Assembly (NCBI RefSeq): GCF_000444875.1
Contig: NC_021985.1
Span: 496,001-560,000, forward strand
Source: Streptomyces collinus Tu 365
Lineage (GTDB): Bacteria; Actinomycetota; Actinomycetes; Streptomycetales; Streptomycetaceae
Length of the DNA: 64,000 bases
Direction of reading: 5' to 3'
Shown here: in pieces, positions 3,805-28,561 of the stretch
Layout: each line of letters starts with the position of its first letter
Position numbering within the stretch: position 1 is the first letter of the stretch
The notes under the pieces: generated by a model
What the model was told of the DNA's origin: nothing
Seen by the model: only the letters and a program-made list of their open reading frames with translations
The model's database searches: none
Program-made: the position numbers and the translations under genes

Positions 3805-4953
3805 GTGCAATTCGGGCGTTATCCGGTGCGGTGGCACATCGTGCTGCTCACTCTGTGGACGGTCGTCTGGTTCGCGGTGGCCGAACGGCACGCGGCCGTG
3901 TCCTGGCACTATCTGCGCCAGGGGGAGCAACTGCTCTTCGGCCAGGCGAACGGCGGCGGACTCGCCCTGTATGCCAACCACCCCGAGCTGCAGATAGGCC
4001 CCGTCAGCTTCCTGACCGCCGGACTCTTCGCACCTTTCCCCGCCGATCTCGGTGAGAAACTCGCCGACGCCTTCATGTCCGGCCTCGGCCTCTACATGCT
4101 CGTCCTGGTCGGCCGTGCCGCCGCCGACCATTACCTCGGCACGGGCGTCAACCACAAGCGCCTACAACAACGCGTCCTCATCGCCGGCGCCGCATTCATC
4201 CCCATGTGGGTGGAGGTCGCGGTCCGTTTCGCCCATCTCGACGACGTCCTCGCCCTGTTCTTCACTACGCTCGCCGTCCGCGCACTGGTCCGGGGCAACG
4301 CGACGGCGGTGGGCGCCCTCCTGGCTCTCGCGGTCGACTCCAAGCCCTGGGCCGTCGGATTCCTGTCCCTGCTGCTCGCCCTGCCCCGCCCGGCCCGCCT
4401 GCGCGCCGCGGCCTGGACGTTCGGCCTGGTGGCGGTGGCCTGGCTGCCCTTCTACCTGACCCATCTGGAAACCCTGCACGCGGCCCGCTTCACGATCCCC
4501 AACCAGCTCGCTTCCTCACTGCGCTGGTTCGGCGTCGACGACCCCCGGACCCCCTGGTGGGACCGCCCCGCCCAGTTGGCCCTCGGCATGGGCCTGGGCG
4601 CACTGGCAGTACGACGCGGACGCTGGCCGGCGGTGGTGTTCCTGGCGGCCGACGCCCGCATCGTCCTCGACCCGAGCGTGTACACGTACTACAACGCGTC
4701 GGTCCTGCTCGGCACCCTGATCTGGGACTCGATCGGCCAGCGCCGCCTGGTCCCGTGGGTCAGCTGGATCGCCCTGATCTCCCTGTACGGCAGCGCCCTG
4801 CTGATCCCGTCGGACGCCGCCCGGGGCTTCATCCGCCTGGCGTTCTGCCTGGGCTCGGCGGCGTACGTCCTTCTGTGGCCCCAGCGCCCCCCGCGCGGCG
4901 ACCGCCGCCGCCCCGCAGGCGAGCCGGTGCAAGGGGCGCTCGCCAGCAACTGA
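3805..4953 (+). CDS. polytopic membrane protein, glycosyltransferase-C-like
   Basis: A 382-residue protein with about nine hydrophobic segments, started by GTG behind GGAGG. The arrangement (short cytoplasmic N-terminus, one helix, then a large polar loop with conserved-looking aspartates and aromatic residues, then repeated helices) resembles GT-C or DUF2029-type polyprenyl-phosphate sugar transferases. No diagnostic catalytic motif was found, so the enzyme class is an inference. It is alone on its strand. The 320 bases before it hold no recognisable gene. Confidence 0.55.
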   Translation: MQFGRYPVRWHIVLLTLWTVVWFAVAERHAAVSWHYLRQGEQLLFGQANGGGLALYANHPELQIGPVSFLTAGLFAPFPADLGEKLADAFMSGLGLYMLVLVGRAAADHYLGTGVNHKRLQQRVLIAGAAFIPMWVEVAVRFAHLDDVLALFFTTLAVRALVRGNATAVGALLALAVDSKPWAVGFLSLLLALPRPARLRAAAWTFGLVAVAWLPFYLTHLETLHAARFTIPNQLASSLRWFGVDDPRTPWWDRPAQLALGMGLGALAVRRGRWPAVVFLAADARIVLDPSVYTYYNASVLLGTLIWDSIGQRRLVPWVSWIALISLYGSALLIPSDAARGFIRLAFCLGSAAYVLLWPQRPPRGDRRRPAGEPVQGALASN

Positions 4954-6771: not shown

Positions 6772-8186
6772 GAGGGCCTCTCCGCGGGGGGTTCGGACTC
6801 CGCCGCCGGTGCCGCGAGGCCGCCGACGCGGAGCAGGTCGCGCTCGTACCAGTGCCGTCCGACCAGGAAGGCCGCCGTCGCCGCGATCGCGACGAGGGGC
6901 ACCACGCGCAGGGCGCCCAGCAGGCCGACGTGGTCCGCCAGCACGCCGGTCAGCGCCGGTCCGGGCGCCAGGCCGAGCAGGCTGTTGGCCAGGGTGAGGG
7001 TGCCGAAGGCGGTCGCGGCGACGGACGCGGGGGTCAGGTTCGCCACCATGGCCGCCGCGGGGCCCGCAGACCCGGCCGACAGCAGCGCGCCGAACGCCAG
7101 CGCGCCCAACTGAACCGGTCCGTCGGGGAGTTGAAAAGCCACCGTGAGCAGCACCAGCGAGCCGAGGCTGCACCCGACGGCGACGGCCCACTTGCGGATG
7201 GAGACGCCCGCGCTGATCCGGTCGGATACGACACCGCCGAGGATCATGCCTACGCCGATGATCAGCGCGTAGCCGCCGGCCGCGCTGCCCGACTGGGCGG
7301 TCGTGAGGTGGTAGTAGCGGTTGAAGTAGCTCGGCAGCCAGGACAGCAGCGTGGCGGCGACGAACAGCTGCAGTCCGCTGCCGACGTAGGCGCTGATGAC
7401 GGAGACGGAGGAGAACAGCCGCGGCAGGTGCGCGCGCAGCGGCACGTTCGCCGGTGCCGGGGGCGCGTCCCGCGATCCGGCGGCGCTCGCCCCGGCGGCA
7501 TCCGACGGATCCTCGGCGGAGTCCGCGACCCGCACGAGCCTGCGCTCCTTGACGACGACGCCGTAGACCGCGGCGAGCACCAGGCCGAAGATGCCCATGA
7601 CGGCGAACGCCCAACGCCAGCCGGCCGCCTGGGCCACAGCGCCACCGATGGAGACGCCGAGCACGGCCCCGAACGCACCGCCCGCGATGAAGGTGCCGGA
7701 GAGGGTGGCCCGCAGGGCGACGGGGAAGATGCTCAGCACCACGGCGATCCCGACGCTGCCGTAGGCCGCCTCGCCGATGCCGACGAAGAGACGGGCCACG
7801 AACATCTGGCCGTAGTCCGCCGACATCGCGCATCCGACGGTGGCGATGGACCAGAGCGTGGCGGCGAACAGCAGACAGCGCACCCGCCCCCACCGGTCGG
7901 CCATGAGGGACATCGGGAAGGTCAGCACGCCGACCGCCAGCGCCACGATGCTGCTGAGCGACCCGAGGGCGGCGTCCGACAACAGCCACTCGGACTTGAG
8001 CATCGGGAAGACGGCGTTGAGAACCTGCCGGGACATGTAGTCCGACAGCAGCAGGCCGAAGCTGAGCGCGAAGACCGTCCAGGCGTAGCCCCGGGGAACG
8101 GGCCACACCGAGGGGAAGGCCCCTGGGGCCGGGAGGGTCGCCTCCACGGTGGGAGCCGAGGTCTGCGCAGGGGTGTGAAACTCCAT
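6768..8186 (-). CDS. MFS transporter of the organic-anion (ACS-like) type
   Basis: About 472 residues, 12 hydrophobic segments. The first helix pair ends in LMADRWGRVRC, the classic MFS loop, and there is a variable acidic central loop (VADSAEDPSDAAG). SEWLLSDAALGSLSSIVALA resembles anion:cation symporters that import organic acids. ATG 8186 is chosen because AGAGG lies eight bases upstream; an ATG six bases earlier overlaps that box. It follows the dioxygenase by about 40 bases and probably imports the substrate of the operon. Confidence 0.8.
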   Translation of the reverse strand: MEFHTPAQTSAPTVEATLPAPGAFPSVWPVPRGYAWTVFALSFGLLLSDYMSRQVLNAVFPMLKSEWLLSDAALGSLSSIVALAVGVLTFPMSLMADRWGRVRCLLFAATLWSIATVGCAMSADYGQMFVARLFVGIGEAAYGSVGIAVVLSIFPVALRATLSGTFIAGGAFGAVLGVSIGGAVAQAAGWRWAFAVMGIFGLVLAAVYGVVVKERRLVRVADSAEDPSDAAGASAAGSRDAPPAPANVPLRAHLPRLFSSVSVISAYVGSGLQLFVAATLLSWLPSYFNRYYHLTTAQSGSAAGGYALIIGVGMILGGVVSDRISAGVSIRKWAVAVGCSLGSLVLLTVAFQLPDGPVQLGALAFGALLSAGSAGPAAAMVANLTPASVAATAFGTLTLANSLLGLAPGPALTGVLADHVGLLGALRVVPLVAIAATAAFLVGRHWYERDLLRVGGLAAPAAESEPPAERPS

Positions 8187-10270: not shown

Positions 10271-11323
10271 TCAGGCGTCGCGCAGCATGAAGCCGCGCTG
10301 TCCCGGACGGCGGTTGGGCACCATGCCGAGGCGGGCCAGCGTCTCGTCGGTGTCGGCGTAGTACTCGCCGATCCGGTAGATCCGCTTCGCGTCCGTGCCG
10401 GTGGCGATGTCCCGGCCGAGCGCCTCGGAGATCTGCACCATCTGCTCGACCTGCGCCACGGAGGACATCGGCTCGCCCTTGGCACGCCACAGGTTGTCCT
10501 CGTTGCCGACGCGCACGTGCTGGCCGAGGGCGATGGCCACCGCGTTCATCGGGGCCACGGCGCGCATGGAACTCTCGACCGTGAGGACGGCGCCGTCCGG
10601 TACACGACGGATGAACTCGACCAGGTCCGCCGGGTGCCGACCGGCGAAACCGCCACCTATGGCGACGTAGTTGAGGACCAGCGGGCCGGTGTGGACGCCC
10701 GCGCGGATCAGCCGCTCGACGGTCTCCAGCTGCGCCAGGTGCGCGAGCTGGAAGTGCGGCTGGATGCCGCTCGCGCGCAGCCTCTTGAGGTGCTCCAGGT
10801 AGAAGTCCGGACCGGCCTCGACGACCATGTCGCGGTAGGCGCGGTAGTAGTCGGGCTTCGCCATCGAGGTGCCCGCCAGGTCGTCGTCGTTCATGATTTC
10901 GACGATGTTCATCTGGCTGGTGTTGATCGCGATGGTCACCTGGTCGGGCGCCGGAGTGAGTTCGGCGAGCAGGTGACGGGTGTCGTACGCGAGCCACTTG
11001 GCGTCGCCGCCCTCGCCCTCGGGGGCGAAGGAGATCGAACCGCCGATCTGCAGCACCATGTCCGGCACGGCCTCGCGCAGCCGGCCGAGCAGCTCGTTGA
11101 ACATGGACATCCGCTTGGAGCCCTTGCCGTCGAGCTCACGGACGTGGATGTGCAGCACGGTCGCGCCGGCGTTGTGGCAGTCGACGGCCGCCTGGACGTG
11201 CTCGTCCATGGTCAGCGGCAGGTCCTCCGCGTCGCCGGGCAGCCACTCCGGCCCGTACGGCGCGGCCTGGATGACCAACTTCTCCTGGTTCTCCGGGAAG
11301 AGAGAGTCGTCGTGGAAGTGCAC
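10271..11323 (-). CDS. BKACE (beta-keto acid cleavage enzyme, DUF849)
   Basis: A 350-residue TIM-barrel enzyme of the 3-keto-5-aminohexanoate cleavage family. These Zn enzymes condense a beta-keto acid with acetyl-CoA to give acetoacetate and a new acyl-CoA. The metal histidines are in ATVLHIHVRELDG; other family landmarks are QIGGSISF, GPLVLNYVAIGGGFAG, and the C-terminal HVRVGNEDNLW. GTG 11323 has AAGGAG eight bases upstream. As first gene of the operon it defines a beta-keto-acid catabolic route; carnitine-type or amino-acid substrates are both known for the family. Confidence 0.87.
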   Translation of the reverse strand: MHFHDDSLFPENQEKLVIQAAPYGPEWLPGDAEDLPLTMDEHVQAAVDCHNAGATVLHIHVRELDGKGSKRMSMFNELLGRLREAVPDMVLQIGGSISFAPEGEGGDAKWLAYDTRHLLAELTPAPDQVTIAINTSQMNIVEIMNDDDLAGTSMAKPDYYRAYRDMVVEAGPDFYLEHLKRLRASGIQPHFQLAHLAQLETVERLIRAGVHTGPLVLNYVAIGGGFAGRHPADLVEFIRRVPDGAVLTVESSMRAVAPMNAVAIALGQHVRVGNEDNLWRAKGEPMSSVAQVEQMVQISEALGRDIATGTDAKRIYRIGEYYADTDETLARLGMVPNRRPGQRGFMLRDA

Positions 11324-16085: not shown

Positions 16086-16928
16086 GTGCAGTGGACGGAC
16101 CAGAGCAGCGGAGGGTACGGCGCGGATCCGTACGACAGTGCCGGGGACGGGTACGACTACGCCTGCGAGCACGACGGCGGTACCACCACCGGCATGGCCG
16201 CCACGCCCCGGGCGTCGGGGCAACTCGCGCAGGGGACGTACCCCGCGGTCGACGCCTACGCACGGGGGACGGATCTCTACGGCGCCGAGGCGCACGTGCA
16301 CGATGCCGGACCCGGGGCCGCCGCGACCGTGTCGGGCGTCCACGGTGACGTCCTCACCGTGGACGTCCTCACCGCGCCGGCCCCGGGACTCGGCACGCCC
16401 GGCGATCCCACGCCGGGAGCGGAGACTCCGTTCGGAAGCGATTCGGTGCGGCCGGTCTTCGTGGACTCCTCGGGCCGCCGCCAGCGCCGCGTGCGGCGCG
16501 CGGCCCGGCTGCTGGTGATCCCCGCGGGCGGCTACGTCGCCCTGCTGATCAGCGCCGTGCTCGGCGGCCCCAGACTCAGCGCCCCGTTCGTGCCCCAGCC
16601 GGACTCCCCGGACCGCTCCACGCCACGCGCGTCCGTGCCCGACACCTCCGCCGGTACCGGCGACTCCGCGGAGAGCACGCGGTCCGCTGCGGCGCGGAAG
16701 AACTCCCGCTCCACGGCGGCGCAGAAGAACGCCAGTCCGACCGAACGGCCGACAGCCCCCGCCACCACCGCGGCCACACCCGTGCCGACCACGGCGCCCA
16801 CCAGCGCCGCGTCTCCGACCTCTTCCACCTCCGTCTCGGCCCCGGCCCCGGCCGCCACTCCTGCCGTGCCCACCCGTCCGACCCCCAGGGGCCGCGCGCT
16901 CGGCACGTCCCACAAGCCCGTGAGATGA
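16086..16928 (+). CDS. matA: MatA-like membrane protein with Pro/Thr/Ala-rich tail
   Basis: A 280-residue protein starting at GTG (AGGAG upstream). The first ~130 residues are acidic and Gly/Asp/Tyr-rich (QSSGGYGADPYDSAGDGYDY), followed by a basic stop (RRQRRVRRAARLL), one transmembrane helix (VIPAGGYVALLISAVLGG), and a low-complexity Ser/Thr/Pro/Ala tail outside. It lies 15 bases before the bifunctional synthase. This gene pair matches the matAB arrangement of Streptomyces, where MatA is needed with MatB for the hyphal poly-N-acetylglucosamine. The symbol rests on context, not on alignment. Confidence 0.6.
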   Translation: MQWTDQSSGGYGADPYDSAGDGYDYACEHDGGTTTGMAATPRASGQLAQGTYPAVDAYARGTDLYGAEAHVHDAGPGAAATVSGVHGDVLTVDVLTAPAPGLGTPGDPTPGAETPFGSDSVRPVFVDSSGRRQRRVRRAARLLVIPAGGYVALLISAVLGGPRLSAPFVPQPDSPDRSTPRASVPDTSAGTGDSAESTRSAAARKNSRSTAAQKNASPTERPTAPATTAATPVPTTAPTSAASPTSSTSVSAPAPAATPAVPTRPTPRGRALGTSHKPVR

Positions 16929-16943
16929 TCCAAGGCTCCTGAC

Positions 16944-19148
16944 GTGACCCATCACCGCCGCCGCGCCGCCCGGCGCCGCGACCGCACTCGCCGGATCACA
17001 CCCCGCACCCATTGGCTGCTGCTCAGCGTGTTCGCGGTCACCTTGTCCACGGCCCTGCTGCTCCAGGGCTACACCCACCACATGTTCGGCATCACCTCGG
17101 ACGCCGTGACCGGCGTCCGGGGCAGGAGCGACATGGTGCCCGCCCGGGTGGCCCACGGCGGCCCCGTGATCGCGGGCGCCGCCACCTCTCCCCACACCGC
17201 CCGGGTGCGGCCCCGCACCATCGCGCTGACCTTCGACGACGGCCCGGACCCCACCTGGACGCCACGCATCCTGGAGGTGCTGCGCCGCAACCACGTGCAC
17301 GCGACCTTCTTCGTCGTCGGGACCCAGGTCGTCGCCCACCCCGAGCTGGTCCGCCGTATCGTCGCCGACGGCCACCAGATCGGCATCCACACCTTCACCC
17401 ATCCCGACCTGGCCCGTCTCGCCCCGTGGCAACGCTCGCTGGAGTTGCGTGAGACGCAGTTGGCGGTGGCCGGCGCCGCGGGGGTCACCACCGCACTGCT
17501 CAGGCCGCCGTACTCCTCGGAGAACGGCGCGCTGGACGACGCCGACTGGTCCGTCCTGAAGCAGGCCGACGCGGCGGGTTACGTCACGGTGCTGTCCACC
17601 CAGGACGCCGAGGACTGGCAGCGCCCCGGTGCGCGCCGCATCCTCGCGAACGCGACACCACACGGGCACGGCGGGCAGGTCCTGCTCATGCACGACGCCG
17701 GCGGCGACCGCTCCCAGACCGTCGCCGCGCTGGCTGCCCTGGTCCCACGCCTCAAGGCGCAGGGCTTCAGGTTCGCGACGGTCTCCGACGCGGTCGGCAT
17801 GGCCGCACCCGTACAGCCCGCCGGCCTGGGCGATCACCTGCAAGGACTGGCCCTCGTCAGGGCCCTCCAGGGCGGTGACCGGGTCGTCCGGCTGCTGGGC
17901 TGGCTGATGTACGCGGCAGGCGCGATCAGCGTGCTGCGCGCGGCCGTCGTACTGACAGCCGCCCGGCGGCACCGCCGCCTGCGGGCGGGCGGACCCGACC
18001 GGTCCTGGGGACCACGGGTCACCGAGCCGGTCAGCGTCATCGTTCCCGCCTACAACGAGAGCGCCGGGATCGAGGCGGCCGTGCGTTCGCTGCTCGCATC
18101 CGACCATCCGGTCGAGATCATCGTGGTCGACGACGGGTCGACCGACGGCACCGCCGATCTGGTGGAGGCACTCGGTCTGCCGGTGCGGGTGATCCGCCGG
18201 CGGAACGCGGGCAAGCCCGCCGCCCTCAACAGCGGGCTCGCCGCCGCCACCTGCGACCTGGTGGTCATGGTCGACGGCGACACGGTCTTCGAACCCGACA
18301 CCGTCCGCACCATCGTGCAGCCTTTCGCCGACCCCCGCGTGGGGGCCGTCTCGGGCAACGCCAAGGTCGTCAACCGTGGCGGCCTGCTGGGTCGCTGGCA
18401 GCACATCGAGTACGTGGTCGGGTTCAATCTCGACCGCCGCCTGTTCGACCTCGCCGAATGCATGCCGACCGTGCCCGGCGCGGTCGGCGCGTTCCGCCGC
18501 CGGGCGCTGCTTGACCTCGGCGGAGTCAGCGACGTCACCCTGGCCGAGGACACCGACCTCACCATGGCCCTGTGCCGGAACGGCTGGCGCGTGGTGTACG
18601 AGGAGGGCGCCAAGGCATGGACGGAGGCTCCGGCCTCTTTGAACGCCCTGTGGCGGCAGCGCTACCGCTGGTGCTACGGCACCCTCCAGGCGATGTGGAA
18701 GCACCGCGGCGCGCTCGTACAACGCGGCGCCGCCGGGAAACTGGGCCGCAGGGGCCTGATCTACCTGCTTCTCTTCCAGGTGCTGCTGCCCCTGCTCGCA
18801 CCCGCGGTGGACATCTTCGCCCTCTACGGGCTCGTCTTCCTCGACCCGGTCCGGATCATCGGGCTGTGGCTGACCTTCCTGCTGCTGCAACTCCTGATGG
18901 GCCTCTACGCGTTCCGTCTGGACGGCGAACGCCCGGGCCCCCTGTGGAGCCTGCCGCTGCAGCAGTTCGTCTACCGACAGCTGATGTACCTGGTCGTGAT
19001 CCAGTCCGTGTTCACCGCCGTCTCGGGCTCGCGCCTGCGGTGGCAACGCATGGAACGGTACGGAAGTCTGCAGCCCCCGGTCGGCGCTCAGCCACTCCCC
19101 TCCGACCTCACCCGGGAGGAGCCTCCCGCGGCATCCACCCCGCGATGA
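16944..19148 (+). CDS. matB: bifunctional polysaccharide deacetylase / family 2 glycosyltransferase (MatB-like)
   Basis: A 734-residue membrane enzyme. After an N-terminal helix (22-42) comes a NodB-type deacetylase: TFDDGPD at 96-102 and the metal pair HTFTH (149-153), with RPPYSSENG. A second membrane segment follows near 300. A GT2 synthase then shows VSVIVPAYNES, VVDDGSTDG, VMVDGDT, LAEDTDLT and QRYRW, ending in three or four helices. One protein therefore makes and partly deacetylates a beta-linked GlcNAc polymer, as MatB does in S. coelicolor/lividans for hyphal aggregation and adhesion. GTG start. Confidence 0.85.
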   Translation: MTHHRRRAARRRDRTRRITPRTHWLLLSVFAVTLSTALLLQGYTHHMFGITSDAVTGVRGRSDMVPARVAHGGPVIAGAATSPHTARVRPRTIALTFDDGPDPTWTPRILEVLRRNHVHATFFVVGTQVVAHPELVRRIVADGHQIGIHTFTHPDLARLAPWQRSLELRETQLAVAGAAGVTTALLRPPYSSENGALDDADWSVLKQADAAGYVTVLSTQDAEDWQRPGARRILANATPHGHGGQVLLMHDAGGDRSQTVAALAALVPRLKAQGFRFATVSDAVGMAAPVQPAGLGDHLQGLALVRALQGGDRVVRLLGWLMYAAGAISVLRAAVVLTAARRHRRLRAGGPDRSWGPRVTEPVSVIVPAYNESAGIEAAVRSLLASDHPVEIIVVDDGSTDGTADLVEALGLPVRVIRRRNAGKPAALNSGLAAATCDLVVMVDGDTVFEPDTVRTIVQPFADPRVGAVSGNAKVVNRGGLLGRWQHIEYVVGFNLDRRLFDLAECMPTVPGAVGAFRRRALLDLGGVSDVTLAEDTDLTMALCRNGWRVVYEEGAKAWTEAPASLNALWRQRYRWCYGTLQAMWKHRGALVQRGAAGKLGRRGLIYLLLFQVLLPLLAPAVDIFALYGLVFLDPVRIIGLWLTFLLLQLLMGLYAFRLDGERPGPLWSLPLQQFVYRQLMYLVVIQSVFTAVSGSRLRWQRMERYGSLQPPVGAQPLPSDLTREEPPAASTPR

Positions 19149-19976: not shown

Positions 19977-20108
19977 TCAGCCGCTTCCGCCGGACGTCAC
20001 GACCGGCCCCGCGTCGCCCGGTGGCAGCACGAGCACCGCCGCCGCACCCACGCAGACGAGTTCCCCGTCGGATACCGGCGTGAGCCCGAACACCGGGGAA
20101 GAAGACGG
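19977..20108 (-). pseudogene. possible C-terminal remnant of a membrane protein
   Basis: Reading leftwards to a TGA at 19977, the frame gives VFGLTPVSDGELVCVGAAAV then LVLPPGDAGPVV. It resembles the last helix of cation-transporting P-type ATPases (F-x-x-x-PLS followed by a hydrophobic run). No upstream coding sequence continues it. It is weak evidence for a decayed gene in an otherwise empty 310-base gap. Confidence 0.25.
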
Positions 20109-20229
20109 ACATGAGGAGCAAGGACGCGAGGACGGCGACGATCGCATCGTCCCGTTCGCCTTCTCCGATCCCTGGTGGCTTCCCCTGAACCCCTCAACTC
20201 TCCTGACACAGCTGTGCGAGCCTGGCGCC

Positions 20230-20964
20230 ATGCGGCTGCTGCTCATCGAAGACGACGACCGAATCGCAGGCCCTCTCACCGAGGGCCTGGGACGCTACGG
20301 GTTCGCTGTGGACCACGTCCGCACCGGCACCGCCGGGCTCGCCGCCACCGCGACCTCGCCGGACCTGGTCCTGCTGGATCTCGGTCTGCCCGACATGGAC
20401 GGCCTGGACGTCTGCCGCACCCTCAGGGCCCGCTCCGCCGTCCCCATCATCATGATCACCGCGCGGGGCGAGGAGGCCGACCGTGTCGTCGGCCTGGAGC
20501 TCGGCGCCGACGACTACCTCGCCAAGCCCTTCGGCGTGCGGGAGCTGATCGCCCGCATCCGCGCCGTCACCCGCCGGGCCGGCGCCCCCGCCTTCACGCC
20601 GACCGGACCCGCGCGAACACCCGAATCGCATCGGCCGGCCTCCGGCGCGCAGGTGTTGGGGCCGCTGACCCTCAACCGCCGCACCCGCGAGGTCCATCTC
20701 AACAGCCGGCAGGTCGCCCTGACGCCCCGAGAGTTCGACCTGCTCGCCTTCCTCGCCGACGATCCGGGCACGGTGTGCACCCGGCAGCAGATCATGGACA
20801 CGGTCTGGGACCCCCACTTCTTCGGCCCCACCAAAACCCTCGACGCGCACGTGGCCGCCCTGCGCCGCAAGCTCGGCGACCCCGGATGGGTCACCACCGC
20901 CCGCGGCGTCGGCTTCCGTCTCACCGTCCCCCGCGAACCCGGCGCCTCAGAGGCGGCCGAATGA
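20230..20964 (+). CDS. OmpR-family response regulator
   Basis: A 244-residue regulator. The receiver (1-118) shows IEDDDRI, the phospho-acceptor in LLDLGLPDMDG, the Thr of MITARGEE and LAKPFG. A winged-helix DNA-binding domain (150-235) contains LTPREFDLLAFLADDPG, RQQIMDTVWDP and DAHVAALRRKLGDP. There is no clear ribosome binding site before the ATG. Its TGA overlaps the ATG of the kinase by four bases. Confidence 0.92.
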   Translation: MRLLLIEDDDRIAGPLTEGLGRYGFAVDHVRTGTAGLAATATSPDLVLLDLGLPDMDGLDVCRTLRARSAVPIIMITARGEEADRVVGLELGADDYLAKPFGVRELIARIRAVTRRAGAPAFTPTGPARTPESHRPASGAQVLGPLTLNRRTREVHLNSRQVALTPREFDLLAFLADDPGTVCTRQQIMDTVWDPHFFGPTKTLDAHVAALRRKLGDPGWVTTARGVGFRLTVPREPGASEAAE

Positions 20965-22415
20965 CCCGCCGCCTCCTCCTCAGCTACCTCGCCCTGGCCG
21001 CACTCGTACTGGCCGGGCTGGAGATCCCCCTCGGCTACATATACGCCCGCGGCGAGACCTCCCGTGCCTCACAGAGCGTGGAACGCGACGCCTCCACGCT
21101 CGCCGAGGTCGCTGAGGAGAACATCGAAAAGGGCCGGCTCGACGCGCTGCCGGACGTTGTCGGTGACTACGCCAACCGCACCGGCGCCCACGTCGTCGTC
21201 ACCGACAGACAGGGCATCGTCCTGGCCGACTCCGATCCCGCCGGCCGCGCTGGGAGGAGCCTTGCCGATCAGCCGGACATCGCCCGCGCCCTGAACAACC
21301 AGCCCACCGTCACCACCACGACGGACGGCGCCGGCCGTGACGTGCTGTCCGCGACCATGCCCGGCTCCTCCGGCACCACGATCCGCGGCGCCCTGCGCCT
21401 GACGTGCCCCCTGGACCAGGTCAGCACCCGCGTACACCGCATCTGGGGCGCCTTGGCCCTCGCCGCAGCCTGCATCCTTGCCGCGGTCGCTCTGATCGCC
21501 TTCAGCCTGGCCCGCTGGATCACCCGCCCCCTGCGCACCCTGGAAGCCGCGACCACCCAACTCGCCCACGGGCACCTGGCCCACCCGCCCGACGCCACCA
21601 CCGGACCGCCCGAACTGCGCCGACTGGCCACGTCGTTCAACCACACCGCGACCCGGCTCCAGCACCTCCTCGCGTCCCAGCAGGCGTTCGCCTCGGAAGC
21701 CTCCCACCAGCTGAAGACTCCGCTGACCGCACTGCGACTGCGGCTGGAGAACTTCGAGCCCCACCTGGACCCGCGCGCGCACGGCAGCCTGGAGGAAGCC
21801 GTCGGAGAGGTCGAACGCCTCGGCCGTATGGTGCAGGGACTCCTCGCGCTGGCCCGGCTGGAGAACACCGCGACCACCCCCGAACCCGTCGATCTGGACG
21901 CCGTCCTCACCGACCGTGTCGCCATGTGGGAGCCACTGGCGGCCGAACAGTACGTGACCCTCGACATCACCGGCCCGCCCACCGGCCATGTGTGGGCGAT
22001 CCCCGGCGCCCTGGAACAGATCATCGACAACCTCCTCGCCAACGCTCTGCGTGTCTCCCCACCCGGCACCACCATCACCCTGCACCGCGTCCCCGGCAGC
22101 GAACTCCACGTCATCGACCAGGGGCCCGGCATGAACGACACGGACCGCGATCGCGCCTTCGACCGGTTCTGGCGCTCCTCCGACTCTCACCACGACGGCA
22201 CCGGCCTCGGCCTGCCGATCGTCCGCCACCTCGTCGACGCCTCCGGCGGCACCATCACGCTCCACCCCGCCCCCGGCACCGGCCTCGACGCCCGCATACG
22301 GCTGCGCCCCGCCCCTGCCCGCCGGAACAAAGTGTCACCGCCGGGAGAGGACTTCGGCGCGCGCCGCGGCCGCAGCCGTCACACAGAGCCGGCCGGCCGC
22401 GGCTTCGATGCGTGA
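20961..22415 (+). CDS. sensor histidine kinase
   Basis: A 484-residue kinase coupled to the response regulator by an ATGA overlap. It has an N-terminal helix (5-28), a periplasmic-type sensor of about 130 residues (TGAHVVVTDRQGIVLADSDP), a second helix, a HAMP segment (ARWITRPLRTLE), the H-box ASEASHQLKTPLTALRLRLE with the phospho-His, and a HATPase domain (EQIIDNLLANALRVSP, VIDQGPGM, GTGLGLPIV). The last 40 residues are basic and variable. The signal is unknown. Confidence 0.92.
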   Translation: MTRRLLLSYLALAALVLAGLEIPLGYIYARGETSRASQSVERDASTLAEVAEENIEKGRLDALPDVVGDYANRTGAHVVVTDRQGIVLADSDPAGRAGRSLADQPDIARALNNQPTVTTTTDGAGRDVLSATMPGSSGTTIRGALRLTCPLDQVSTRVHRIWGALALAAACILAAVALIAFSLARWITRPLRTLEAATTQLAHGHLAHPPDATTGPPELRRLATSFNHTATRLQHLLASQQAFASEASHQLKTPLTALRLRLENFEPHLDPRAHGSLEEAVGEVERLGRMVQGLLALARLENTATTPEPVDLDAVLTDRVAMWEPLAAEQYVTLDITGPPTGHVWAIPGALEQIIDNLLANALRVSPPGTTITLHRVPGSELHVIDQGPGMNDTDRDRAFDRFWRSSDSHHDGTGLGLPIVRHLVDASGGTITLHPAPGTGLDARIRLRPAPARRNKVSPPGEDFGARRGRSRHTEPAGRGFDA

Positions 22416-23368: not shown

Positions 23369-24451
23369 TCAGGAACCGCACAGCGGGCACTCCGGGCGCG
23401 CCGGATGTCGTACGTCGACCAGTTGGTCGGGAGCGATCAGGTTGAGGCCCCGCACATACCCCGGTGCGCGCCTGCCCGTTCCCGTGAGCAGCGAGACCAC
23501 CTCATGGGCGATCAGCTGTCCGGATATTCCCGCGGACGGGGCGAGCACCCCGGTACCCCCCAGGTCCGGGTGCCAGCCGGGCTTGAGCTTCGCCTCCTCC
23601 CCCGCACCGACGCATTCGAAGCAGGGACCGGCGGGACCGTACACGCCGACGGTCACCAGCGGGCCGTTGTATCCGGCGGTCACCCAGGGGACGCCCTGTG
23701 CGGCACACACCCGGTTGGTCATCTTGGCGATGAGGTCGTTGCGCGGCTCGTCGGCGCACAGAGCGAAGACATCGCAGTCCGAGACGAGTTCTGCCAGCGC
23801 CTTCTCGGTGTCCACCATCCGGATGTCGCAGGTGAAGGAGCCCGCCGAGTTGACCGAGCGCAGACGCTCGACCGCGACCTGGGCCTTGGGCCTGCCGAGG
23901 TCGGCTTCGCCGTACAGTACCTGCCGGGTCAGATTGGACACCTCGACGCGGTCCGGATCGACGAGGTGCAGGCTGCCGACCCCTACGGCGGCCAGCGCCC
24001 ATGCGGCGTGGCTGCCCGTGCCGCCGACACCCAGAATCCCCACGCGCGCGTTCTTGAGCCGCCGCTGCGCCGCCCACGGGTCGCTGCCCGGTCGCAGGTC
24101 GATACGCCGGAAATAGGCGTGGTTGCGGCTGTATCGCTCCGTCTCATCGCCGGTGAGGCCTTCGGGGTGTCCACCGGCCGCGTCTTCGAGGTAGCCGGTG
24201 TCCAGCAGCGCCTTGACCATTCCCCGTGCGCCGCTGTCGCCCAACGACGGGTGCCGTGCGGCCAGTTCCGCCTCGATACGCTCGACCGGGGTGGCTCCGT
24301 CCATCAGGCTCAGCGCTTCCCAGACCCAGCCGTGCGGGTCGGTGATCTCCGCTGCGATTCCGTACAGTTCGCCGCCGATCCGGATGGTTCCGTCGTCGAA
24401 TCGATGGGCTGTGTGCTCGGGTTTCACCCGTGGATGTGTCACGACCACCAC
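23369..24451 (-). CDS. E1-like adenylating enzyme (ThiF/MccB-type) with N-terminal peptide-binding-like domain
   Basis: A 360-residue protein, close in length to MccB. Residues 10-95 form a small winged-helix-like domain (HRFDDGTIRIGGELYGIA; VERIEAELAARHP; VKALLDTGYLED) resembling RiPP recognition elements. The adenylation domain follows: GVGGTG at 141-146, DPDRVEVSNLTRQ at 165-177, and LCADEPRND near 231. Two CXXC pairs (C277/C280 and C355/C358) should bind Zn. Adjacent GTGs at 24451 and 24448 follow AAGGAG. It lies 53 bases after the candidate precursor gene. Adenylation of the peptide C-terminus or a side chain is inferred; the product is unknown. Confidence 0.82.
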   Translation of the reverse strand: MVVVTHPRVKPEHTAHRFDDGTIRIGGELYGIAAEITDPHGWVWEALSLMDGATPVERIEAELAARHPSLGDSGARGMVKALLDTGYLEDAAGGHPEGLTGDETERYSRNHAYFRRIDLRPGSDPWAAQRRLKNARVGILGVGGTGSHAAWALAAVGVGSLHLVDPDRVEVSNLTRQVLYGEADLGRPKAQVAVERLRSVNSAGSFTCDIRMVDTEKALAELVSDCDVFALCADEPRNDLIAKMTNRVCAAQGVPWVTAGYNGPLVTVGVYGPAGPCFECVGAGEEAKLKPGWHPDLGGTGVLAPSAGISGQLIAHEVVSLLTGTGRRAPGYVRGLNLIAPDQLVDVRHPARPECPLCGS

Positions 24452-24464
24452 GCTCCTTGAGAGC

Positions 24465-24496
24465 CGTGCCGGTGATCCCGAGGAATCACCGGCACG
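24465..24496. promoter_or_regulatory. 12-bp hairpin between precursor and modifying enzyme
   Basis: CGTGCCGGTGAT (24465-24476) and ATCACCGGCACG (24485-24496) are perfectly complementary around an eight-base loop. It sits in the 53-base gap between the precursor stop and the enzyme start, on their common transcript. Such leaky terminators or mRNA-stabilising hairpins commonly keep precursor levels above enzyme levels in RiPP operons; that role is inferred. Confidence 0.7.
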
Positions 24497-24504
24497 AACC
24501 TTTC

Positions 24505-24645
24505 CTACCTGACGATCGACTTGTTCTGGATGGTCTCGATCTTGTCGAGCAGACGGATCTCGAGGAGCTCGGTCTGCGCCGTCGCCTCGGCCTCGCCGGG
24601 CGCGATCGCTTCCTCGTCCTGTGTGGCGTGGATGTTGTCCTGCAC
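24505..24645 (-). CDS. candidate RiPP precursor peptide (46 aa)
   Basis: The frame starts at GTG (24645) behind GAGGGAGAAA and stops at TAG (24505). It encodes an acidic, Glu/Ala-rich half (QDNIHATQDEEAIAPGEAEA) and then a predicted amphipathic helix (TELLEIRLLDKIETIQNK) ending SIVR. There is no Cys. Size, acidity, good start signal, and position directly upstream of an E1-like enzyme make it the likely substrate. The C-terminus is Arg, not the Asn known for the microcin C peptide, so the modification site is open (Asp, Glu, Asn and Ser are all available). Confidence 0.7.
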   Translation of the reverse strand: MQDNIHATQDEEAIAPGEAEATAQTELLEIRLLDKIETIQNKSIVR

Positions 24646-25118
24646 GATCTTTCTCCCTCTTTGTGTTGATCTCTCCCGCGGATGCGGAAGTCCATGGGCG
24701 ATCGACGCCGTTCCTGCACGTGAGTCGTCACCCCACGGCGGCGAGGCGGGCGCCGGTCATCCCTGCCGCGACCTCGGCGTCGAAGGCGGAACCGGGTTCA
24801 TTCAGGACAGGTTCAGCAGCAGGTCTGGTACCGGCCCCGGCGCCTCGCGCCGGCTACTGGAAACGATTCGTGACGCCCGCAGCCCGCAACTGCGGTTGTC
24901 GGAGGAACGTTCTCTGCATTCAGGGATTCACCTGCCGGACTTCCTACCGGCCCGGCCTGCTCCCACTCTTCACGGCCGTACTTTCCAGGTCCTTTCGGCG
25001 TTCTTTCCGCCGACGACGCCCGCGGCCACCCTGTTCAGGGCGGCAAGCAGCCGTCTGTGGAAGCCGGCCACCGAGTCGTCACCAGACACCCTTGCGGATG
25101 ATGGGCTGAAGACGGGCC
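24646..25118. other. intergenic upstream of the precursor gene
   Basis: About 470 bases between the GH65 stop and the precursor start. A leftward frame around 24725-24830 (AAEPVLNEPGSAFDAEVAAG, MTGARLAAVG) has coding character but no start codon after an in-frame stop, so it may be the tail of a lost gene. No other gene was seen. The precursor promoter should lie here. Confidence 0.35.
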
Positions 25119-27512
25119 TCAGTCCTGTGGCTCCGTCCAGGCGGCCTCCGGGCTGGGCCGTCCTGCCGGGCGGCGGCCGCGCGGCTGCTGTGGTTCGGGC
25201 AGCACGGGGGCGGGCGGCAGCGGGCGGTCCACCGGTTCGTCGGCGGTCACGGTCATCGGTTCTCCGTGGTGCAGCACCTGAAGCGGGTCGCCGTCGACCA
25301 GTCGGTAGCGTGCTCTGGTCTGATCGATGTCCACGTTCAGCCTGCGTCCGTGCACCGCCACCGTGAACGCCACCCTGGACAACGCCTCGGGCAGGCGCGG
25401 AGCGAACCCCAGCAGGTCCGCCCTTCCGTCCTTGAGGTGCCTTTGCAGGCCCCCGAATCCGGCGACCAGCGCGATCCACGTCCCTGCGAGGGAGGCGATG
25501 TGCAGTCCGTCGCGGGTGTTGTGCTCCAGGTCGTCCAGGTCCATCAGCGCGGCCTCGCCGAGGTAGGCGTAGGCCAGCCGCAGATGACCCGTCTGCGCGG
25601 CGAGCACCGCCTGGCAGGCCGCCGAGAGGGAAGAGTCGCGGACGGTCAGCGCCTCGTAGTAGGCGAAGTTGCGTTCCTTCTCCTGGTCGGTGAACGCATA
25701 GGGGCACTCCAACATCGCCAGCACCACGTCGGCTTGCTTGATCACTTGTTTGCGGTACAGATCGAAGTAGGGGTAGTGCAGCATCAGCGGGTAGTTCTCC
25801 GGCGGGGTCGCGTCGAAGTCCCAGCGCTGGAAGTGTGTGAACCCGGCCGACTGTTCGTGCACGCCGAGGCTCTCGTTGTACGGCATCGCCATGCGGGCCG
25901 CGGCGTCCCGCCAACCGGCGGCCTCCTCGTCGTCGACCCCCAGTTCCTCGGCGCGCTCCCGGTGACGCGTGACCACGTCCGCGGCGGCACGCAGGTTCTG
26001 CCGGGCCATCAGATTGGTGTAGAGGTTGTCCCGGGCGATGGCGCTGTACTCGTCCGGTCCGGTGACCCCGTCGATGTGGAACACGCCCTGCGCGTCGTGG
26101 TGTCCAAGGGAGCGCCACAAGCGGGCGGTCTCCACGAGCAGGTCGAGTCCCTCGTGGCGCTCGAACTCCTCGTCGCCGGTCATCGCCACGTAGCGGACCG
26201 CGGCCATGGCGATGTCGGCGTTGATGTGGAAGGCGGCGGTGCCGGCCGGCCAGTAGGCGGAGCACTCGGCGCCGTCGACCGTCCGCCAGGGGAACACCGC
26301 CCCGGCCAGACCCAGTTGGCGGGCGCGTTCCCGGGCCGCCGGGAGCGTGCGGTGGCGCCATCGCAGCGGCGAGGGAACGGTGTCCGGCACGGTGAAGGTC
26401 AGCACCGGCAGGACGTAGGACTCGGTGTCCCAGAAGCAGTGTCCGTCGTACCCGGTTCCGGTGAGTCCCTTGGCGGGAATCGCCCGGTTCTCGCCGCGGG
26501 CCGCGGCCTGGAGGACGTGGAAGAGGGCGAAGCGTACCGCCTGCTGGATCTGCGCGTCGCCCTCGACCTCGACGTCCGCGCCGGCCCAGAACCGGTCCAG
26601 GTAGTCACGCTGGGCCGCGACCAGGCCGTCCCAGCCGGTGCTGATCGCGGCGGCCACCGCGCCGTCCACCTGGTCGTGCACGGCCGGCAGCGACCGCTCC
26701 CCCGACCAGCCGTAGGCCACGAACTTGACCAGGCGCAGCGGTCGTCCGGGCACCAGGTCCGCGGTCACCGTCAGACGGCTGACGTCGGGCTCGCACTGCG
26801 CGGTCCAACGGGTGCTCTCCGGACCCTCGACGAGGTGGTCGGCCGCAGCCGCGACCCGCAGCCCGCTGACGCCGGTACGGTGCACGAGCCGCAACCGGGT
26901 GTCCTGCGCGAAGGACTCCTCGGCCACCAGTGGGGACTCGGTCGCCGCGGCGACGCGCGGATCGCCCTCGACGCGGGGCAGCTGCTCGTTGGCGACCAGC
27001 TCGGACTGCACGGCGACCGTGGTCGGACCGTCGAGCGGCTCTACCTCGTACACGATCGCGGCGACCGCGCGCTGGGTGAAGGAGACGAGCCGCTGTGAGG
27101 AGATCCGCACCGTACGGCCGTCGGGCGAGACCCATCGCGCCGTCCGGCTGAGGATGCCCGAGCGGAAGTCCAGGGAACGCTCGTGCGCCAGCACTTGCCC
27201 GTAGCGCAGGTCGCACGGGTGGTCGTCGACCAGCAGTCGGATGATCTTGCCGTCGGTGACGTTGATCATCGTCTGGCCGGACTCGGGATACCCGAATCCG
27301 CCCTCGGCGTAGGGCAACGGGTGCCTCTCGTGGACACCGTTGAGGTACGCACCGGGCAGCCCGTGCGGTTCCCCCTCGTCCAGGTTCCCGCGCCACCCGA
27401 TGTGCCCATTGGAGAGGGCGAACACCGATTCGCTCTGGGCGAGGACGTCCAGGTTCAGCTCGGTCTCGCGCAGGCTCCACGGCTCGACCGTGAAGCTGGG
27501 ATGGGTGATCAC
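25119..27512 (-). CDS. glycoside hydrolase family 65 disaccharide phosphorylase
   Basis: A 797-residue protein with the GH65 layout: an N-terminal beta-sandwich (SVFALSNGHIGWRGNLDEGE), an (alpha/alpha)6 barrel with KGLTGTGYDGHCFWDTE and the catalytic acid in DGVTGPDEYSA, and LEHNTRDGLHIASLAGTWIA near the phosphate site. Such enzymes phosphorolyse trehalose, maltose, kojibiose or nigerose to beta-glucose 1-phosphate. GTG 27512 overlaps the stop of the upstream HAD gene by four bases, matching the usual pairing with beta-phosphoglucomutase. The last 50 residues are Pro/Arg-rich and dispensable-looking. Confidence 0.88.
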   Translation of the reverse strand: MITHPSFTVEPWSLRETELNLDVLAQSESVFALSNGHIGWRGNLDEGEPHGLPGAYLNGVHERHPLPYAEGGFGYPESGQTMINVTDGKIIRLLVDDHPCDLRYGQVLAHERSLDFRSGILSRTARWVSPDGRTVRISSQRLVSFTQRAVAAIVYEVEPLDGPTTVAVQSELVANEQLPRVEGDPRVAAATESPLVAEESFAQDTRLRLVHRTGVSGLRVAAAADHLVEGPESTRWTAQCEPDVSRLTVTADLVPGRPLRLVKFVAYGWSGERSLPAVHDQVDGAVAAAISTGWDGLVAAQRDYLDRFWAGADVEVEGDAQIQQAVRFALFHVLQAAARGENRAIPAKGLTGTGYDGHCFWDTESYVLPVLTFTVPDTVPSPLRWRHRTLPAARERARQLGLAGAVFPWRTVDGAECSAYWPAGTAAFHINADIAMAAVRYVAMTGDEEFERHEGLDLLVETARLWRSLGHHDAQGVFHIDGVTGPDEYSAIARDNLYTNLMARQNLRAAADVVTRHRERAEELGVDDEEAAGWRDAAARMAMPYNESLGVHEQSAGFTHFQRWDFDATPPENYPLMLHYPYFDLYRKQVIKQADVVLAMLECPYAFTDQEKERNFAYYEALTVRDSSLSAACQAVLAAQTGHLRLAYAYLGEAALMDLDDLEHNTRDGLHIASLAGTWIALVAGFGGLQRHLKDGRADLLGFAPRLPEALSRVAFTVAVHGRRLNVDIDQTRARYRLVDGDPLQVLHHGEPMTVTADEPVDRPLPPAPVLPEPQQPRGRRPAGRPSPEAAWTEPQD

Positions 27513-28039
27513 CGTGCCTCCAGGAGTTCATCCAGGTCGCGGACGACCACATCCGCGCCGTGCGCCCGCAAGTGCTCCGCCTGGCCGACCCCGGCGACCC
27601 CCACGACCAGGCCGAACCGTCCCGTCCGCCCCGCTTCGGCACCGGCGAGCGCGTCCTCGAGCACAGCGGCCGCGTCCTCGTCCACCGCCGGCGCACGGCC
27701 CGCCGCAACGGTCGCCACCAGGAAGTTGTTCTTCCGGGTGCCGGGCCCGTTCACCGTCTGCGTCCGCGGCTGGCCGTCCGGTGCGCCTTCGGGCAGCCGC
27801 ACCCCTCGCGCGGCGAGGAAGGTACGCACGCCGTCCTCGCGGGGCCTGCCGTTCACGGACTCGCCGTAGTCGTGAACGGCGTCGAAGGGCACGTACGCCG
27901 CCCCCTCGCGTGCCGGGCGCTCGCGGAGACAGTCGTCGAACATCTCCTTCCAGGCAGCCGCGTGCGCCTTCGCAGGCTGGGCGAGCACCCCGTCGGGGTC
28001 GAACGGGCAGACACGGACGCGAGCAGGTAGCCCCAGCAT
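27509..28039 (-). pseudogene. beta-phosphoglucomutase-like HAD protein with internal deletion
   Basis: A 176-residue frame coupled to the GH65 gene. The N-terminus keeps CPFDPDGVL (both Asp of the HAD DXDG motif, though Pro is unusual between them), then AAAWKEMFDDCLRERP and the cap region ending NGPGTRKNN. After only ~25 further residues it resumes at VLEDALAGAEAGRTGRFGLV, the normal C-terminal end. The family is about 230-250 residues, so the middle of the Rossmann core, with motifs II and III, appears deleted in frame. It probably cannot isomerise glucose 1-phosphate. Confidence 0.6.
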
Positions 28040-28164
28040 GCCGCCGAGGCTAGAAGCCGTCGTCGGACTACGGGACGAAGACACTCCCCCGCACGTGGCA
28101 AGGCACCCACTCGGTCCACGCGGCGGTAGTTCGGAGGTGGCGGTGACGGGGGTGCAGGGGGGCC

Positions 28165-28561
28165 ACCGCGGTCCGCTACGGCGACGGCTGGCCCGACCGG
28201 GTACGGGCCGGCCGCCCGCCAGGGCGTCGACTTCGTCCTGACGCCTCCGGTGCGCGGTGCAGCTGGCCAGCACACGGGGCATCACCGTCATCGGAACGGC
28301 CGGTGAACGCGACATCCGCCGTTGGCGGCAGCTACGGCGAGTACGCCCTGCTCGACGGGCCGGTGGCCAAGCCCGGATCCCTGTCGTGGGAGACGATCCC
28401 AGGACCTCCTCCCCCACGACCACGCCGGCGCCCTCGCCGACCGCGTCCACGACACCGGCGGCATCGAGGCCGGGGGTCACGGGAAAGCGGGCCGGGGCGG
28501 TGCCGGCCATCAGACCGGCGCGGATCTTCAGGCCGAGTGGGTTGACGGAGGCGGCCCGCAC
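28165..28561. pseudogene. scrambled remnants of a quinone-oxidoreductase-like gene
   Basis: Four pieces of one MDR-type oxidoreductase can be read. On the plus strand: TAVRYGDGWPDRVRA (about 28165-28205, continuing after a one-base shift as QGVDFVL), VQLASTRGITVIGTAGER (from 28258), and GGSYGEYALLDGPVAKPGS (from 28324). On the minus strand from 28561: RAASVNPLGLKIRAGLMAG and PGLDAAGVVDAVGEGAGVV. The physical order is that of a minus-strand gene, but three of the four blocks are inverted in place. No functional enzyme can be made. Confidence 0.6.

Follow-up and report, generated by a model that had tools for sequence, protein, structure and literature searches.

The 64,000-nucleotide stretch of the Streptomyces collinus Tu 365 chromosome analysed here (NC_021985.1, positions 496,001 to 560,000; referred to as the window, in whose coordinates features are given unless a contig is named) carries on its minus strand a two-gene unit, i.e. 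a small open reading frame followed by a gene for a ThiF-type (E1-like) enzyme. The small frame (24505-24645) has 46 codons and a GTG start, with AGAGGGAGAAAG preceding the start and the ribosome binding site region AGAGGGAGAA at 24651-24660; the encoded peptide is without Cys and its C-terminal residue is Arg. The ThiF-type gene (23369-24451; 360 residues) lies 53 bp downstream of the peptide frame, and as judged from the sequence its true start may be a later GTG. A first-pass annotation, made from the sequence alone, had taken the two genes as a candidate system for a ribosomally synthesized and post-translationally modified peptide (RiPP), in which the peptide frame directly precedes the enzyme gene. 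The frame, its ribosome binding site and the order of the genes are confirmed, while the directness is not, as the 53-bp spacer holds a strong hairpin (see below). We report that the gene pair is a real, conserved RiPP-like system, and that it is separated in this strain from a protease gene which accompanies it in most related loci.

The search for related ThiF genes showed that the family is not rare, with matches in 28 of 392 Streptomyces genomes and in 40 of 150 genomes of another actinobacterial family (from the latter, 42 of 53 rows were taken with flanks and used). The window, six named records and 67 genome stretches make up the 74 loci compared, an incomplete sample from which a distant match (L011) and a duplicate of L010 (L141) were excluded; two of the 28 Streptomyces genomes lie outside this set, one having the motif described below (G105) and one that showed none (G050). 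Genes in these loci were called with a GC-based script, not a standard gene finder, and the labels Opp, SARP, methyltransferase, GNAT and lectin are by-eye assignments that do not come from a family scan.

In 70 of the 74 loci, the window included, the ThiF gene has near it (-1.6 to +4 kb from its start) a small frame whose product carries an IxIRxLD(K/R)xET(T/I/A)-like motif followed by a short tail; the exceptions are L083, L084, L085 and L088. The remaining 686 kb of these loci had no match to the motif, so the pairing is more than chance. When only the leader half was searched for, with E and T not built in, ET came next in 61 of the 70 distinct frames near ThiF and in none of 26 frames elsewhere. 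Homologues of the peptide beside related ThiF genes, which the first-pass annotation had suggested looking for, are hence present in the large majority of loci. In the window peptide the motif, LEIRLLDKIETI, covers residues 28-39 (24529-24564) and is taken as an RRE-binding leader (RRE, RiPP recognition element) plus Glu37-Thr38, given the family motif and an Arg-Glu spacing as in PaaP, the precursor of pantocin A; the C-terminal tail QNKSIVR (residues 40-46; 24508-24528) corresponds to the part that varies between clades. Past the leader motif the window peptide has a single Glu, in KIETI.

Altogether 76 family peptides were found (68 distinct), approximately 20 to 50 residues long and positioned on the same strand upstream (31), the same strand downstream (27) or the opposite strand upstream (18) of the ThiF gene. 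The Glu of the E-T element is present in 67 of the 68 distinct peptides (E and Q both being allowed at this position by the search pattern); the sole Gln variant belongs to L070, where the frame lies 156 bp upstream of ThiF on the opposite strand, and constitutes a natural test case for any mechanism that uses this Glu. The tails after ETx comprise 6 to 11 residues and vary between clades, and the last residue is highly variable (Asn in 18 and Thr in 4 of the 68). Cys is present in 16 of the 68 distinct tails, so its lack in the window peptide, which had been thought to set the system apart, is not general. Streptomyces group 1, to which the window belongs, has tails such as QNKQIDS, QNKSIVR and ETKAVSR, while the peptides of group 2 are encoded on the opposite strand and most have 23-25 residues, an example being KIEIRPLDKKETTGDSGGNGGS. 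In family f17, which we take to be probably the Streptosporangiaceae, many peptides are encoded after the ThiF gene and have ETT and SNSxGN-like tails, while others are encoded before it. Two different family peptides occur near one ThiF gene in L076, L078, L067, L130, L131 and L143.

The window peptide has four database homologues, labelled "hypothetical protein" or without name, which are 65-91% identical overall and all retain EIRLLDKIETIQNKSIVR exactly. Pooling all pairs of ten group-1 sequences, the proportion of nonsynonymous differences in the last 19 codons was 0.15 (pN) vs 0.36 for synonymous differences (pS); the window and L010 peptides compared alone over 46 codons gave 20/107 nonsynonymous and 2/31 synonymous, which is not significant (p 0.16). 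For the window peptide and those of six relatives there was no NCBIfam match, and the only Pfam match was DUF2200 below cut-off (E 0.098) in one of the six. The literature searched had no match to the peptide motif strings.

The window enzyme matches PF00899 (ThiF; Pfam, E 7.9e-42). As had been noted in the first pass, it has a GXGGXG motif (GVGGTG, residues 141-146) and two CXXC pairs (CFEC, 277-280; CPLC, 355-358), and in an alignment of 58 sequences all four Cys are invariant together with D167, N173, R176, Q177, K189 and D234. The RQx11K spacing is present in all 79 rows of our tree, outgroups included, and the distance of 12 from Q to K equals that between Q167 and K179 of IndF, which the IndF paper places at the alpha-phosphate (here and below, statements on published systems draw on the parts available to us of PMC12250964, PMC12150305, PMC12710340, PMC7470986, PMC13252029 and PMC10036551). 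Judging from these alignments the E1-type ATP and Cys4 motifs are intact, and they lie in the predicted ThiF/E1 adenylation domain (residues 97-360; 23372-24163).

The N-terminal part (residues ~5-95; 24167-24439) is predicted to be a winged-helix RRE domain, as had been proposed. The Pfam PaaA-like_N match is weak and below cut-off (19.5 vs 27 bits), and the best solved sequence relative is PaaA (5ff5; phmmer, E 5.6e-33, residues 6-269), followed by MccB (3e-26) and MoeB (7e-26). An AlphaFold2 model based on the 58 sequences (mean predicted local distance difference test score 92.9) is covered by MccB over residues 5-360 and by PaaA over 5-350, and by MoeB and ThiF from residues 97-99 only; by Z alone MoeB/ThiF (31.6-32.5) are level with MccB (30.7-31.4) and above PaaA (27.9). 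In Foldseek, MccB and PaaA were among the first 21 rows, ahead of ThiF. These data support the earlier analogy to MccB and PaaA, and the RRE domain as a prediction. Another ThiF-fold match to the model was AclA (9egb).

In the tree the window enzyme groups with those of L010 and L069 (support 100/98), while MoeB, together with the MoeZ of the strain itself (L003), falls outside the family rows, in keeping with the expectation that the enzyme would not cluster with them. The branch separating the family and MccB from MoeB, MoeZ and PaaA has support 93/54; PaaA and MccB sit on long branches, and their placement is unsure. An anti-phage E1-E2 system was considered and set aside, the PADLOC matches spanning the ThiF core only (residues 112-259 at most, among 25 of 27 rows). 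The same strain has a second ThiF-like frame (L004; G000:C1:1190703-1191146) with 37% identity to the window enzyme over residues 121-273 and a printed translation without CXXC.

In 49 of the 74 loci a gene for a predicted RRE-fused, site-2-type HExxH membrane metalloprotease is present downstream of ThiF on the same strand, and a carboxypeptidase homologue accompanies 17. Structure models predict an RRE domain on the protease as well as on the ThiF enzyme. NCBIfam matches of the proteases were weak and below cut-off (daptide_HExxH, E 0.011 in one relative; YydH/LiaK, E 0.05-0.09). Both genes occur in 23 of the 392 Streptomyces genomes; 5 have only ThiF, 12 only the protease, and 352 lack the two (Fisher p 8e-24). 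When the 12 protease-only stretches were opened, nine held a ThiF match below the threshold of the first search (L156, one of these, is cut by its contig end) and three did not; eight of the nine have the peptide. The revised table is 32/5/3/352 (p 3e-38), with the added matches coming from a looser search confined to the protease-only genomes.

By coordinates the ThiF and protease genes are adjacent in 22 of the 23 Streptomyces genomes that have both, and the exception is the window's strain. Here the peptide-ThiF pair is present in two copies (C1:519372 and C1:7752474), in identical 4,080-bp stretches of opposite orientation placed near-symmetrically to the contig ends, and the protease gene, with its frame open, is at C1:5514853-5516088, 2.2 Mb from the nearer copy. 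The displaced protease gene is flanked by Opp-like operons with a SARP-like gene after it, as in the intact loci L006 and L008 but without the pair. The nearest relatives of the strain's protease are those of L069 and L010 (73%), i.e. the loci that also hold the nearest kin of its ThiF enzyme, and the simplest history is therefore one ancestral cluster that was later parted in this strain. The absence of a processing gene beside the pair is not a property of the system, and its apparent two-gene make-up without a protease stems from the parting of a cluster.

On this basis we lean, with moderate confidence, towards the reading that the pair belongs to a conserved actinobacterial family and takes part in a RiPP pathway with RRE leader binding, adenylation and capture of Glu37, and protease cleavage. 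By analogy with PaaA, MccB and IndF, the predicted RRE of the ThiF enzyme would grip the IxIRxLD motif and Glu37, near-invariant in the family, would be adenylated by the ThiF domain; once activated, Glu37 would be captured with loss of water by a group close to it in the peptide (Thr38 or the neighbouring backbone being the probable choice), and the predicted RRE-fused intramembrane metalloprotease, encoded elsewhere in the strain, would cut off the leader and free the product. We infer that the leader is bound, that Glu37 is the residue activated, and where the cross-link and the cleavage lie, as well as export and any activity of the product. Glu37 is the favoured residue and the best fit to the peptide sequences because Glu is near-invariant, the C-terminal residue is variable and a carboxypeptidase homologue lies beside 17 of the loci. 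The Gln variant of L070 weighs against this, as does the fairly constant tail length, which leaves room for activation at the C-terminus. The earlier interpretation as a whole is partly supported; a C-terminal Asn, one of the sites it had considered, does not apply to a peptide that ends with Arg.

The main rival to activation of Glu37 keeps the same RiPP family and lets the enzyme activate the C-terminal carboxylate, which would give a nucleotide-capped or tail-cyclised peptide and reduce E-T to a recognition element. MccB and IndF are described as acting at the C-terminus, the tail length and the Asn that ends 18 of the 68 distinct peptides fit such a reaction, and it would tolerate the Gln of L070. 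However, the last residue varies highly while Glu is kept in 67 of 68 peptides and ET follows in 61 of 70 frames when not asked for, the window peptide ends with Arg, and a carboxypeptidase homologue is found with 17 loci; we regard C-terminal activation as possible and on balance doubtful. The pair in the window's strain might also be a decaying relic, its cluster broken up and the pair in the terminal repeats non-functional, given that the protease-regulator half now lies between Opp-like operons without the pair and that the genes are otherwise adjacent (22 of 23). But both genes are open and retained as two identical copies (4,080 bp compared), the residues of the ATP site and the four Cys are present, the protease frame is open and near-identical peptides occur in other Streptomyces, which makes decay unlikely.

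Ubiquitin-like carriers are served by ThiF-fold enzymes, and a small carrier-protein or signalling pair (a ThiS/MoaD-like sulfur carrier or modifier) that makes no natural product would agree with the GG ends of a few relatives' peptides, and with the genes for Opp-type peptide transporters that by eye adjoin several group-1 clusters. The peptides with such ends, which are reminiscent of sulfur-carrier tails, are those of L136 (ALREGG), L137 (GLREGG) and L065 (GWRVIGAGG). Yet peptides of ~20-50 residues are too short for a beta-grasp fold, the GG end is missing in most of them and both partner enzymes have a predicted RRE, a RiPP hallmark, so that a carrier pair appears quite improbable. An ordinary MoeB/ThiF cofactor enzyme beside a chance frame is ruled out by the tree, in which MoeB and the strain's MoeZ lie outside the family, by the two best NCBIfam scores (118 bits, far below the cut-offs of 275 for ThiF and 266 for MoeB) and by the conservation of the neighbouring peptide.

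In a bolder reading, the family could represent a large RiPP class of actinobacteria that has so far gone unrecognised. Its IxIRxLD leader would serve both RRE enzymes: the ThiF adenylase, which would activate the near-invariant Glu that follows and cross-link it to the adjacent Thr or its backbone, and the site-2-type protease, by which a short product would be released. The strain of the window would then have the two halves of the cluster apart, with the peptide-enzyme half present twice, in the terminal repeats. This broader proposal is tentative, and we put it forward with some reserve. The family likely makes little-explored modified-peptide products, and it comes with a precise motif in the substrate, a protease that may do the processing and many tails that vary naturally. 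It is also an example of how one half of a split cluster can look like a minimal RiPP system of two genes.

The spacer between the two genes folds into a 14-bp hairpin (24465-24496; -32.8 kcal/mol, z -6.6 vs dinucleotide shuffles). A strong spacer hairpin is present in 8 of the 10 group-1 loci, the window included (z -4.4 to -7.1, mononucleotide shuffles); that of L058 is weaker (z -2.6), L057 has none, and the stems differ in sequence from sub-clade to sub-clade. A consensus search of 24440-25120 gave neither an intrinsic terminator nor a sigma-70 promoter, so by that test the hairpin is without a T run, and no known RNA element was found at Rfam gathering scores. Perhaps the hairpin sets the ratio of peptide to enzyme, with the peptide in excess. 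The neighbouring genes in the window (20080-22415 on the plus strand and 25119-28561 on the minus strand) look unrelated to the pair. They comprise an OmpR-type response regulator with a histidine kinase, a glycoside hydrolase of family 65, and a frame whose match to beta-phosphoglucomutase is below cut-off.

Other small peptides were seen in some of the loci. In L005 (~4006-4179), L010 (~4013-4189) and L064 (~10509-10703) Cys-rich peptides of 57-64 residues, two with LLPxTxAAAGC and one with VLPHTEAAAGC, have as neighbours what by eye are an ABC exporter and a thioredoxin-like protein, and L005 and L010 also have a gene resembling those of S26 signal peptidases; the peptides are perhaps a second peptide system beside the ThiF cluster, and a search of the window's genome for them gave weak matches only (E 0.68 and 0.80). 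Small peptides with MKKI(S/A)VRKxGxxxLTS occur in L161 (~7486-7644), immediately ahead of a gene whose product is distantly related to the HExxH protease (27% identity), and in L008 (~16678-17068), before a by-eye similar frame cut by the locus end. These may constitute another family with an RRE-type protease.

RRE-ThiF fusions are numerous, with 27,400 candidates in one survey and, in the parts of the literature available to us, a handful named with known chemistry. The ThiF-review, IndF, RRE and daptide literature searched did not, as far as accessible, describe the present family, although the unexplored clusters in Figure S1 of the IndF paper may include it. Of the traits expected of such an enzyme, a predicted RRE-ThiF fusion and a conserved precursor gene nearby (70 of 74 loci) are found here, and for an ATP-dependent reaction on the peptide, which would be the third, the RQx11K spacing of the ATP site is kept. 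The closest likeness is to PaaA of pantocin A biosynthesis in Pantoea, likewise an RRE-ThiF fusion. In PaaP the leader contacts are F4, L7, R10 and I11 and the first modification is at E16; the R10-E16 spacing of 6 equals that of R31 and E37 in the window peptide, and beyond the Arg the family shares only a hydrophobic residue three positions before it. Pantocin A differs in that PaaP has an EEN core and a follower, and that its cluster includes the oxygenase PaaB and the transporter PaaC; here a single Glu stands in ET(T/I/A) instead of two adjacent Glu and Asn, and no PaaB- or PaaC-type Pfam match was present among the 10 window frames scanned (the relatives' neighbours were partly scanned). 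In microcin C biosynthesis MccB acts on the C-terminal Asn of MccA-type precursors of mostly 7 residues, as compared to 46 residues and an Arg end here. IndF, GrcB and EnfB of Streptococcus/Enterococcus also combine a small precursor with an RRE-ThiF enzyme, and the Ind cluster has a protease, which is of the M16 type and not a predicted intramembrane HExxH enzyme; the window peptide, having neither Trp nor Cys, offers no counterpart to the Trp-Ile linkage of IndF or the Glu-Cys linkage of GrcB. For daptides an intramembrane site-2 protease with an N-terminal RRE is described; the protease predicted here goes together with the IxIRxLDKxET motif and a ThiF enzyme, and the invariant C-terminal Thr of daptide precursors is found in 4 of 68 peptides and not in that of the window. 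The system is a new variant of the RRE-ThiF kind, and its split in Streptomyces collinus Tu 365 is unusual.
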